Source of the DNA: an uncultured Spirochaetaceae bacterium | Lineage (GTDB): Bacteria; Spirochaetota; Spirochaetia; Sphaerochaetales; Sphaerochaetaceae | Assembly: GCA_944392965.1 (NCBI GenBank) | Contig: CALXYM010000017.1 | Location: forward strand, 1 to 44,611 | Reading direction: 5' to 3' | Length of the DNA: 44,611 nt | In this document: one piece after another, positions 20,601-24,880 of the stretch | Position numbering within the stretch: the first letter of the stretch is position 1 | Layout: every line of letters starts with the position of its first letter | Position numbers and translations under genes: made by a program | The notes under the pieces: model-generated | Told to the model about the DNA's origin: nothing | What the model saw: only the letters and a program-made list of their open reading frames with translations | Database searches by the model: none

Positions 20601-20811
20601 CAGGAGTCAGCATGAACAATTTGAATTCATGTTTTAAAGATCATCGAAAAGGTGCTCTACCATTCTTCACTTCATCTTAAAACATATTTCCCTTACCATC
20701 TCAGACTATGCGAAGAACAGGATAAAACATATCAAAAAGTAAAAGAATTCTTGCAATTACGGACATTCAAAGATTAAAAAAAAATAATACTACCACCTAT
20801 TTTACTTTTTT

Positions 20812-20901
20812 TGAATTTTTCAAAAATATAAAATAGGCAGTGCATAAAAGATTATTTCTGCTATACTTTATAAAAAGTGAATTTTTCAAAAAATATAAAA
20901 T
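20812..20901 (+). repeat. Direct-repeat pair bracketing the first DUF4143 ATPase promoter
   Basis: A 23-24-bp unit (TGAATTTTTC, then A5 or A6, then TATAAAAT) occurs at 20812-20834 and 20878-20901, differing only by one A. The copies start 66 bp apart. The extended -10 at 20859-20867 lies between them. The second copy ends one base before the GGAG ribosome site. Each unit has a small internal dyad, TGAA-TTT-TTCA. Confidence 0.75.
20859..20867 (+). promoter_or_regulatory. Extended -10 promoter of first DUF4143 ATPase gene
   Basis: TG-C-TATACT is a good extended -10 element. No clear -35 is seen, as is common with extended -10 promoters. RNA would start near 20874, just before the second direct repeat. 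Confidence 0.5.
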
Positions 20902-20911
20902 GGAGCTACTT

Positions 20912-22207
20912 ATGATGATAGAACGCAAAGAATATCTGGAACGACTTGTATCAAAGATTGGGAACGGTATGATCAAGATAATTACGGGTATAAGACGTTG
21001 TGGCAAATCATTTCTATTATTCAATATATTCTACGATTATCTCATATCGCAAGGAATAGAGGATGAATGTATCATCAGAATACCGCTAGAAGATGATGAT
21101 TATAGAGAGTTAAGAAATCCTGACAACTTAAAAGAATACATAAAACAAAATATGAAGGACTCCCAAAAACTTTATTATATCTTACTGGATGAAGCCCAAT
21201 TTGCAATCAGCAGAGAGGAAATGAAAAACAGGGATATTCCTATCAGACTATACGGTATACTTAGCGGATTATTAAGAAAAGGTAATGCGGAAATATTCAT
21301 CACAGGAAGTAACTCGAAATTCCTATCCAATGATATACGAACCGAATTTCGCGATAGAGGAGATACTATTCATATCTCTCCTCTTTCATTTTCTGAATAC
21401 TATCATGCCTCGTCTCTTGATAAAAGTGAGGCATGGAAGGAATACATCTACTTTGGAGGATTACCCCATCTCTTTGAAGAAAAGGGGGAAACAAATAAGA
21501 TAAATTACCTTAAAAACCTGAATGGCAGAATTTATCTGGCAGACCTTGTTGAACGTAATACGATAAAAGATGATTCAGGAATGAGCGAACTGATGAGAAT
21601 TCTTGCCTCATCAATAGGATCTCCTATAAATCCAAGAAAAATAGCAGATACGTTTACATCAAACAGGATAAAAGGACTAAGTGAACCAACAATAAAAAAT
21701 TATATTGGATATCTAGAGGACGCATTCATCATCACGCCTGCAGAACGTTATGATATAAAAGGAAGAAGATATATATCTTCTCAAAAAAAATACTATTACT
21801 CAGACATCGGGTTAAGAAATGCGATTCTCAACTTCAGACAACAGGAAGAGAGTCACCTGATGGAAAACGTGATCTTTAATGAGCTTATATTCAGAGGATT
21901 AAATGTCGACACGGGAGCTGCAATAAAAGATACTATTACTGATGGTAAACATGAGAGAAAGCAGTTAGAAGTCGATTTTGTTGTAAACAGAGCTTCCTCT
22001 AGGGTTTACATCCAGTCAGCTCTTACTATTCCCGATAATCAAAAAATGGAACAGGAGCTGGTCTCTTTAAGATCAATCCCTGACTCCTTCAGGAAAGTTG
22101 TCGTAACAGGAGGTAACTATAGGCCATGGCAAAATGAGGAGGGTATCCAGTTCGTTCCCCTGCTCGACTTTCTCCTTAATCCAGACATACTGGAACGCAT
22201 GTTCTGA
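20912..22207 (+). CDS. AAA+ ATPase with C-terminal DUF4143 domain, copy 1
   Basis: This 432-residue protein belongs to the family of ATPases joined to DUF4143. The Walker A is TGIRRCGKS near residues 25-33, Walker B is YYILLDEAQ, and TGSNSKFLSNDI is a sensor-like element. The C-terminal part has an EVDFVVN...YIQSAL pattern; as I recall, DUF4143 is grouped with PD-(D/E)XK nuclease folds. The cellular role of the family is not established. The start ATG 20912 has GGAG six bases upstream; the longer frame back to 20840 would begin upstream of the promoter. The gene is a full-length paralogue of the one at 22527, and both are preceded by promoter-bracketing direct repeats. Confidence 0.85.
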   Translation: MMIERKEYLERLVSKIGNGMIKIITGIRRCGKSFLLFNIFYDYLISQGIEDECIIRIPLEDDDYRELRNPDNLKEYIKQNMKDSQKLYYILLDEAQFAISREEMKNRDIPIRLYGILSGLLRKGNAEIFITGSNSKFLSNDIRTEFRDRGDTIHISPLSFSEYYHASSLDKSEAWKEYIYFGGLPHLFEEKGETNKINYLKNLNGRIYLADLVERNTIKDDSGMSELMRILASSIGSPINPRKIADTFTSNRIKGLSEPTIKNYIGYLEDAFIITPAERYDIKGRRYISSQKKYYYSDIGLRNAILNFRQQEESHLMENVIFNELIFRGLNVDTGAAIKDTITDGKHERKQLEVDFVVNRASSRVYIQSALTIPDNQKMEQELVSLRSIPDSFRKVVVTGGNYRPWQNEEGIQFVPLLDFLLNPDILERMF

Positions 22208-22300: not shown

Positions 22301-22423
22301 TAATAGTTCCGAACGAAGTATCTTCTCGGTTCAAAAAGTCCCTTTCCGATTTCGTCTCAATCCCAAGATGCCATTCTGACTAGCTATTCTTCATCCTTCA
22401 TATATCATTACTCCGAATTTTCA

Positions 22424-22522
22424 GACAATTTACACTTTTTTCGGAGTAGTTATTGACTTATAGAAGATGGGATCCCTATGATTAATACGAATATCGTGAC
22501 AATTTACACTTTTTTCGGAGTA
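22424..22522 (+). repeat. Perfect 25-bp direct repeats bracketing the second DUF4143 ATPase promoter
   Basis: The identical unit, starting GACAATTTACAC, then T6, then CGGAGTA, occurs at 22424-22448 and 22498-22522, 74 bp apart. The promoter -35 and -10 lie between the copies. The second copy carries the GGAG ribosome site. A TACTCCGAA at 22409-22417 is inverted relative to the TTCGGAGTA that ends the first copy, so the left copy can also form a hairpin. Confidence 0.9.
22453..22482 (+). promoter_or_regulatory. Promoter of second DUF4143 ATPase gene
   Basis: TTGACT (22453-22458) and TATGAT (22477-22482) are 18 bp apart, each one base off consensus. RNA would start near 22489. The element lies entirely between the two 25-bp repeats. 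Confidence 0.7.
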
Positions 22523-22526
22523 TGAG

Positions 22527-23783
22527 ATGACTGAGATAAAAAGAGACACATATCTTCAACGCCTGATCAAAAGAACAGGCAATGGCCGTGCTAAGGTAAT
22601 CACGGGAATAAGAAGATGCGGAAAAAGCTATCTTCTGTTCACCTTGTTCTGGAACCACCTTCTCTCCACTGGTGTTGATAAAGATCACATCATTGCCATT
22701 GCACTTGATGATGATGAGAACGAACATCTTCTGGACAGACATGCTCTGGGATTGGAAATACGCTCAAGAATCAAAGATGAGAAAACCTACTATGTATTCC
22801 TTGATGAGATACAGAATGTCGATGGTTTCGAGATGGTCATCAATGGGCTTCTACATAAACCGAATGTTGATGTCTATGTTACCGGAAGCAATTCAAGATT
22901 CCTTTCCTCGGATATCATCACTGAATTCAGAGGCAGGGGAGATGAAGTCAGGGTAAGACCTCTTTCATTCAGTGAAATCAGACCGCTTTACGATTCGGAT
23001 GATGAAGCATGGGATGATTACTTAAACTACGGAGGACTTCCTGCAATCTATGCAGAAGGAATGGATGATGAACAGAAAGTGTCTTTTCTCGAATATGTCA
23101 CAAAGACAATCTACATCAAGGACATTGTGGAAAGAAACAATCTGAAGGACGATAAAGGCATTAGTAGTGTGCTTGATCTTCTGTCCTCTGCAACAGGGAG
23201 CCTGACAAATCCATTGAAGCTCGCCAATACATTCAAGAGCAAGGGACAGAAAGGGATGACGGACAAGACCATTACCAATTATCTTCGTTTCATCGAGGAA
23301 GCCTATATGGTCGAACGTGTCCAGCGATATGACATCAAACGAAAGGATTATATCGAATCCCCTTATAAGTTCTATTTCTCGGATATCGGTGTCAGAAACT
23401 CCAGAATCAACTTCAGACAGGTTGAAGAGACACATATTATGGAGAACATCATCTACAATGAACTCAAAACAAGAGGATATCTTGTTGATGTTGGAATTGT
23501 AGATCATAGGGATAAGGTAGCTGATGGCACATACAGAAACAGGCAGTATGAAGTTGATTTCATTGCAAATCTTGCAGGTAAGCGATACTACATACAGTCC
23601 GCACTGACACTGCTTGATGAAGGAAAGCTGGAACAGGAGCTTAGGGCTCTTTCCCTGATCAGGGACTCATTCAGGAAAATTGTAATTACAAGGGACAGAA
23701 TCAAACCAAGACGTACGGAAAATGGAATTCTGATAATCAACCTTTTTGACTTTCTGCTCAATGATGGTGCAATAGAACAGTAA
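22527..23783 (+). CDS. AAA+ ATPase with C-terminal DUF4143 domain, copy 2
   Basis: This 418-residue paralogue of the previous ATPase keeps every landmark. The Walker A is TGIRRCGKS (residues about 27-35), Walker B is YYVFLDEIQ, TGSNSRFLSSDI follows, then the linker LSSATGSLTNPLKLANTF and the C-terminal EVDFIAN...YYIQSAL of the PD-(D/E)XK-like DUF4143 part. ATG 22527 is placed six bases after GGAG, which is itself inside a 25-bp repeat. Copies differ throughout, so the duplication is old, yet the regulatory layout is the same with a different repeat sequence. Function is unknown; self-regulation is plausible from the repeats. Confidence 0.85.
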   Translation: MTEIKRDTYLQRLIKRTGNGRAKVITGIRRCGKSYLLFTLFWNHLLSTGVDKDHIIAIALDDDENEHLLDRHALGLEIRSRIKDEKTYYVFLDEIQNVDGFEMVINGLLHKPNVDVYVTGSNSRFLSSDIITEFRGRGDEVRVRPLSFSEIRPLYDSDDEAWDDYLNYGGLPAIYAEGMDDEQKVSFLEYVTKTIYIKDIVERNNLKDDKGISSVLDLLSSATGSLTNPLKLANTFKSKGQKGMTDKTITNYLRFIEEAYMVERVQRYDIKRKDYIESPYKFYFSDIGVRNSRINFRQVEETHIMENIIYNELKTRGYLVDVGIVDHRDKVADGTYRNRQYEVDFIANLAGKRYYIQSALTLLDEGKLEQELRALSLIRDSFRKIVITRDRIKPRRTENGILIINLFDFLLNDGAIEQ

Positions 23784-24000
23784 CGCAAGAAAGCGTGGTC
23801 ATACGTGAACATCATAAATTTATATGCCGAGAGCTGCCTTCGACGTCTGTGGTCAGGCGACTACATTTAAAGTGCCCTGTTCGGCTCTTCGCACAACCGA
23901 GATTGTACGCCTCCCCGACTTAGATTAAGCCTACCCTGAAACAACTAAAAATCCAAGTTGGCAAATTGCTGAAAGACCTGAAATACAAAACATTGAAGAA
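23784..24000. other. Unassigned spacer with a more GC-rich block
   Basis: The part 23820-23940 is noticeably richer in G and C than its surroundings. It carries no frame that I can assign with confidence. Minus-strand frames contain pieces such as CSRLTTDVEGSSRHINL that could be the tail of a decayed gene. No intact insertion-sequence end was recognised. Confidence 0.3.
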
Positions 24001-24770: not shown

Positions 24771-24785
24771 GTATTCTTTATAGAT

Positions 24786-24858
24786 TGCCGCCTCCAGGAA
24801 TCGAACCAGGGACACAAGGATTTTCAGTCCTTTGCTCTACCAACTGAGCTAAAGCGGC
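24786..24858 (-). tRNA. tRNA-Phe (anticodon GAA)
   Basis: The minus strand folds as a full cloverleaf of 73 bases. The acceptor arm is GCCGCTT with AGGCGGC, the D-arm GCTCAGTTGGTAGAGC, the anticodon arm GGACTGAAAATCC with GAA, and the T-arm ends GGTTCGATTCC. The 3' CCA is not encoded, so it must be added by the CCA enzyme. A promoter (24881-24909) and a terminator flank it, so it is a single-gene unit. Confidence 0.97.
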
Positions 24859-24880
24859 ATCTGTCGTTTCAACAGAAGCT

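Follow-up and report, generated by a model that had tools for sequence, protein, structure and literature searches.

Repressors of the LacI and GalR type act through paired operators with DNA looping, and the archaeal Orc1/Cdc6 proteins bind repeated sites. Direct repeats are also used at defence loci, where RptR represses a defence island through three of them (PMC12255303). PDC-S01, a single-gene phage defence candidate of PADLOC, is an ATPase fused to a PD-(D/E)XK domain; it is reported to be the fourth commonest defence of prokaryotes, with counts of 29,494 in bacteria and 9,986 in archaea, and most such candidates still await validation (PMC12988326). Our literature search found no tested function for PDC-S01 and a single passing mention of DUF4143, and a search for upstream repeats or autoregulation in the DUF4143 family, with preprints outside its coverage, found nothing. 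Here we describe a gene of this kind in a 44,611-nt stretch of DNA from an uncultured Spirochaetaceae bacterium (contig CALXYM010000017.1; the whole stretch is called the window below). Its promoter lies between two perfect copies of a 25-bp direct repeat. Beyond what the original prediction had noticed from the letters of the window, each copy makes up one half of a longer dyad of 38 bp, and this layout recurs with other sequences at many genes of the family. From sequence comparison we propose, with a probability of about 0.78, that the repeats mark two operators of an autoregulated gene, whose ATPase product would bind its own dyads as a dimer and repress its own promoter.

The 25-bp copies are identical and spaced 74 bp apart (Table 1), as had been claimed. 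The promoter (22453-22482), said to lie between them, does fall wholly within the interval, and the ribosome site is indeed inside the right copy. A dyad scan places each copy within a larger imperfect dyad, the 25-mer being the centre and right arm common to the left operator (O-L) and the right operator (O-R). The outer arms of O-L, CTCCGAA and TTCGGAG, are a perfect inverted match, and the inverted repeat at the copies was also picked up by a repeat finder. O-L ends five bases before the -35 box, and O-R starts one base past the -10. No chance match to the unit was obtained in 100 shuffles, even allowing three mismatches, and at the same tolerance a search of the 2.43-Mb genome finds its 20-mer core at just two sites. 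An Rfam search of the region upstream of the ATPase gene gave no match.

Table 1. Coordinates of the operators, promoter, genes and predicted reader residues in the window.
Feature	Position	Strand	Remarks
Left operator of neighbouring paralogue	20797..20836	+	CTATTTTACTTTTTTTGAATTTTTCAAAAATATAAAATAG
Second copy of neighbouring paralogue's repeat	20878..20901	+	TGAATTTTTCAAAAA-ATATAAAAT; 66 bp downstream
Neighbouring paralogue, AAA_14 + DUF4143, PDC-S01	20912..22207	+	48% identical to the window ATPase
Left operator O-L, 38-bp imperfect dyad	22410..22447	+	ACTCCGAATTTTCAGACAATTTACACTTTTTTCGGAGT; dyad scan; directly 5' of the -35 box
25-bp direct repeat, copy 1	22424..22448	+	GACAATTTACACTTTTTTCGGAGTA; centre and right arm of O-L
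-35 box TTGACT	22453..22458	+	best sigma-70-like promoter of the region; retained in most orthologues
-10 box TATGAT	22477..22482	+	18-nt spacer from the -35
Right operator O-R, 38-bp imperfect dyad	22484..22521	+	AATACGAATATCGTGACAATTTACACTTTTTTCGGAGT; dyad scan; over predicted start site and ribosome site
25-bp direct repeat, copy 2	22498..22522	+	perfect second copy of GACAATTTACACTTTTTTCGGAGTA
Shine-Dalgarno GGAG	22517..22520	+	within O-R; six bases 5' of the ATG
ATPase gene, 418 aa, AAA_14 + DUF4143	22527..23783	+	ATG at 22527
K247 codon	23265..23267	+	predicted reader of C at outer-arm position -7
DUF4143 beta-hairpin, residues 319-349	23481..23573	+	contains co-varying residues 335, 336, 338 (inner half-site)

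The search upstream of other DUF4143 genes that the original prediction had proposed shows that the pair is a family feature. To count as a pair, two sites must score at least 14, be separated by a lag of 55-95 bp and lie no more than 170 bp from the start. A first sample comprised 87 homologues from the same order (orthologues 85-97% identical and others 45-55% identical) and 77 from other taxa, which by record title include Bacillota, Bacteroidota (Duncaniella muris, L182), Actinomycetota (Slackia, L186) and Planctomycetota (Thermoguttaceae, L188); many of these cross-phylum records are metagenome bins, with a taxonomy only as reliable as the binning. A pair is present at 89 of these 164 genes (52/87 same-order, 37/77 cross-phylum) and at none of the 117 control regions taken upstream of neighbouring genes (Fisher 1.6e-18 for the cross-phylum set against controls). 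One of the genes with a clear pair belongs to a named isolate, Duncaniella muris DSM 103720 (L182). The lags peak at about 72-78 and 83-86 bp, with a few at 62-64, 67-69 and 94, and these spacing classes persist while the unit sequence differs at nearly every gene. Dyads with z>2 are found at 70 of the 89 pair-bearing loci. In 61 cases out of 80, no member of the set matches the left copy better than its own right copy does, a likeness that a shared binder explains. When 80 family loci are taken together, the DNA between the operators outscores its own shuffles for -35/-10 elements (Wilcoxon p 2e-14), and the best -10 mostly lies 24-29 bp 5' of the right-operator centre.

The sequences of these sites are private to each gene. 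The source genome contains 27 DUF4143 matches, and at many of the genes direct repeats stand directly upstream of the start, with a sequence that differs gene by gene: TTTACTATTATTCGTTGA twice, 32 apart, at L004; TTCCCCTAGAAAAGTGTG three times, 33 apart, at L006; GTCCAATACGCCGAAT three times, 23 apart, at L010; and ATACTTGCGTATTAT three times, 34 apart, at L017, the third copy being degenerate at L006 and L017. When the units of three other paralogues were searched for in the whole genome, their sites were found almost exclusively at their own gene. A set covering all branches, 53 DUF4143 genes from nine genomes including the source, has arrays or pairs at 26 genes (controls 4/117), and the array spacing follows the branch: 23 bp for GPKWCGKT proteins, 32-34 for GARQ/GARR, and 40 for one GMRR. 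At two of the GPKWCGKT-type genes, L368 and L370, at least four 23-bp units are arranged head to tail directly 5' of the start, like the iterons of plasmids. Three DUF4143 genes are damaged, L001 being without the Walker A part, L007 having an internal TGA and L019 being without its N-terminal half; gene loss is common in the family.

Covariation between protein and operator argues for binding by the ATPase itself. Distance-based correlation proved too weak to place specificity and was replaced by mutual information, computed for columns of the protein alignment against positions of the half-site. In a discovery set of 65 loci (effective number 27), the outer arm is linked to residue 247, and the inner half-site to residues 328, 336 and 338. 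In the structural model, residue 247 opens helix 246-258 of the winged-helix domain, its recognition helix, and residues 328-338 lie on the DUF4143 beta-hairpin. The pairings recur in a replication set of 16 further loci, each less than 80% identical to the discovery set: 247/-7 is the top of 5508 residue-base pairs (p 0.0005), and 338/1 (p 0.0005), 338/2 (p 0.0015), 328/3 (p 0.007) and 328/4 (p 0.005) are also recovered. When shared ancestry is controlled by comparing disjoint sister pairs, 27 in number, the top four places among 4777 go, in this order, to 247/-8, 247/-7, 335/0 and 338/1. The resulting code for residue 247 is chemically sensible: N goes with A (92%, effective number 9.3), K and H with C (100%; 4.7 and 2.0), E with G (83%; 3.0) and P with T (100%; 3.0). 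In the window protein this residue is K247, and the operators, TACGAA and CTCCGAA, show the C that the code predicts. For the neighbouring paralogue, which is outside the covariation loci, an alignment by eye (SEPTI against TDKTI) puts P at this position, and its outer arms are TTTTA, again as predicted.

Private operators thus occur in several phyla and co-vary with residues predicted to read DNA, and therefore the family proteins most likely repress their own genes. Outside control is common among families, so the sites could instead be bound by another regulator. With a unit private to each gene, one regulator per gene would then be needed, and the unit co-varies with the ATPase's own residues, the recognition-helix position included; there is only a slim chance that this is the answer. 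The idea of self-control, by an encoded protein bound to both copies, is strongly supported by the family-wide layout and the residue-base covariation; the looping that was proposed along with it is possible.

The ATPase exceeds the curated Pfam cut-offs for both PF13173 (AAA_14, 110 bits) and PF13635 (DUF4143, 59.4 bits), and it matches PADLOC model PDLC04787 of PDC-S01 over residues 3-413 (E 1.3e-115). NCBIfam and PHROGs gave no match, and a sequence search for relatives of solved structure gave none. A STAND-like NTPase and a winged helix occupy about residues 1-295, followed by a DUF4143 domain of PD-(D/E)XK fold. In the AlphaFold2 model (predicted local distance difference test, pLDDT, 91), residues 1-300 match 2qen (Z 17.2), 2fna (Z 16.9), and plant NLR and CED-4 structures (Z 14-15). 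The C-terminal model (pLDDT 80) resembles the PD-(D/E)XK nucleases 1y88, Cdn1, Can2, Bax1 and McrC (Z 8-10). E342-V-D344 is retained, but in the place of the catalytic (D/E)xK there is Q357-S-A (IQSA), without a lysine, and Q357 is invariant in 54 subfamily members; other DUF4143 branches in the same genomes retain E-V-K or E-I-K. Because of this replacement nuclease activity is improbable in the window subfamily, and to judge by sequence its DUF4143 domain is probably not a nuclease. With the catalytic lysine lost, the fold is probably used for DNA reading.

This architecture also bears on a different role for the operators, as a parking or assembly site where the STAND ATPase would be held inactive or would seed an oligomer, to be freed by a trigger such as phage infection, with repression as a by-product. 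The STAND/NLR-like fold fits such a role, as do the standing of PDC-S01 as a defence candidate (PMC12988326) and the iteron-like 23-bp arrays of L368 and L370 in another branch. We consider it unlikely, though not negligibly so: the precise sandwiching of the promoter suits regulation best, neither trigger nor effector is known, and the nuclease site of the subfamily appears dead.

Self-repression is also consistent with how the locus is conserved. Eleven orthologues, the window's own included, have usable upstream sequence, and both sites are clear at 73-74 bp in 10 of them; L039, the most diverged, retains weak remnants alone, at a lag of 72. In most of them both operators are better conserved than the spacer, and in 7 of 10 identity is no higher than background over the 100 bp directly 5' of the left operator. 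Perfect 25-bp repeats on either side of a promoter had suggested a phase-variable OFF switch, with recombination between the copies deleting the promoter. This now appears very improbable, as the comparison with related genomes that had been suggested found no simple 74-bp deletion in any of the 11 orthologues, nearly all of which keep clear sites. In several the left and right copies have diverged, and therefore the long perfect repeats are gone there. The same layout with imperfect dyads occurs across phyla, and a shared binder accounts for the similarity of left and right.

The homology shared by most orthologues is limited to a segment that opens with the left operator and closes near the stop codon, and in the window, as in four orthologues, the gene is found on the 3' side of tRNA-Phe. 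The pair might then be the end of a mobile cassette (a recombination or transposition site) carrying operator, promoter and gene. This too is improbable: the repeat has no third copy, either 3' of the gene or anywhere else in the genome, and no recombinase gene was seen in the short loci, though none was sought. Neutral flanks are expected to diverge anyway, and the cassette is not adopted because neutral DNA would give the same homology boundary. The tRNA-Phe gene of the window (24785-24859, minus strand) is on the 3' side of the ATPase pair, and the orthologue also adjoins tRNA-Phe in L031, L033, L034 and L036; other orthologues are near tRNA-Arg or tRNA-Leu. These positions are a possible insertion hot spot. 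A small repeated element of 129 bp (23834-23962) is 85% identical to a stretch 5' of the orthologous gene in L034. About 176-244 bp 5' of the start in L038 there is a separate 33-bp tandem array (TGCATATTTTTATACCATATT), a type known from other DUF4143 branches, which is perhaps the leftover of a lost neighbour.

The most straightforward model for these observations is an autorepressor. The ATPase would sit as a symmetric dimer on each 38-bp dyad. The outer arms would be read by the winged helix, through residue 247 and its neighbours, and the inner half-sites, about nine bases away, by the DUF4143 beta-hairpin (residues 335-338). One dyad lies directly 5' of the -35 box and the other covers the start site, at a separation that is usually about 7 or 8 helical turns. 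Protein bound to both would exclude RNA polymerase. The two dimers, with the promoter boxed in between them, may touch via a DNA loop, which the operator spacing makes plausible. Private operators would allow many paralogues in one genome to regulate themselves without cross-talk.

Such an arrangement resembles LacI and GalR in having two dyad operators that flank the promoter, at spacings that may mostly be integral helical turns, and are presumably dimer-bound. It differs in its putative binder, a STAND-like ATPase with two DNA-reading parts, one of them of PD-(D/E)XK fold, and in sites found only at its own gene. As with RptR (PMC12255303), the promoter of a candidate defence locus carries direct repeats for a putative locus-encoded repressor; however, RptR is a small dedicated regulator, whereas here the candidate effector itself would regulate. 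The AAA+/STAND core with winged helix is shared with archaeal Orc1/Cdc6 and STAND ATPases (2fna, 2qen, 2qby, NLRs; Z 13-17), but the window protein adds DUF4143 as a putative reader domain, and its sites are private promoter operators rather than replication origins. The window gene and the four other paralogues tested all match PDC-S01 models. To that description are added gene-private operators and, in the window subfamily, a broken nuclease motif; the literature examined describes no function, DNA target or operator.

Several observations weigh against this model or limit its reach. About half of the family members are without a detectable left copy, and in a second sample (146 loci from the same phylum and IMG/VR) just 35 reach the threshold. 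This lower rate is partly due to a sister branch on viral contigs that uses a 39-41 bp spacing. These IMG/VR viral or prophage contigs (L249-L294) encode proteins 28-38% identical, and several have dyad pairs at 39-41 bp. Genes without a pair have right-hand dyads at rates of 0.23-0.40 in the bacterial samples and 0.10 in the viral sample, against 0.07 in controls; single-operator versions therefore probably exist, and looping is not essential everywhere. Spacings of 67-69 bp, or 6.5 turns, also argue against looping as a necessity. Loci entered the covariation analysis because their pair was clear, and few of them count as independent (effective number about 31). The initially strong signal of residue 328 does not withstand the comparison of sister pairs; its seemingly clean code (N-G, R-C, V-A) is lost there, and the residue is retained as a lead only. 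Finally, the bound ATPase may activate rather than repress its gene.

Going further, PDC-S01/DUF4143 proteins can tentatively be seen, at somewhat less than even odds, as self-addressing ATPases. Each would have at its own promoter a private two-part address, read by the winged helix and the repurposed nuclease hairpin, which would silence the gene and keep the ATPase poised until a trigger arrives.

The private operator pair, together with a replicated residue-base code, provides the first concrete and cheap test for the DUF4143 ATPase family. It also suggests that the nuclease fold of DUF4143 is able to read DNA sequence. The "defence" label of PDC-S01 may need revision, or at least an added regulatory layer. 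Should the code hold, it would make available dozens of orthogonal repressors whose sites can be predicted, and if the self-addressing reading is true, the family would be a large natural set of orthogonal, re-addressable repressors.
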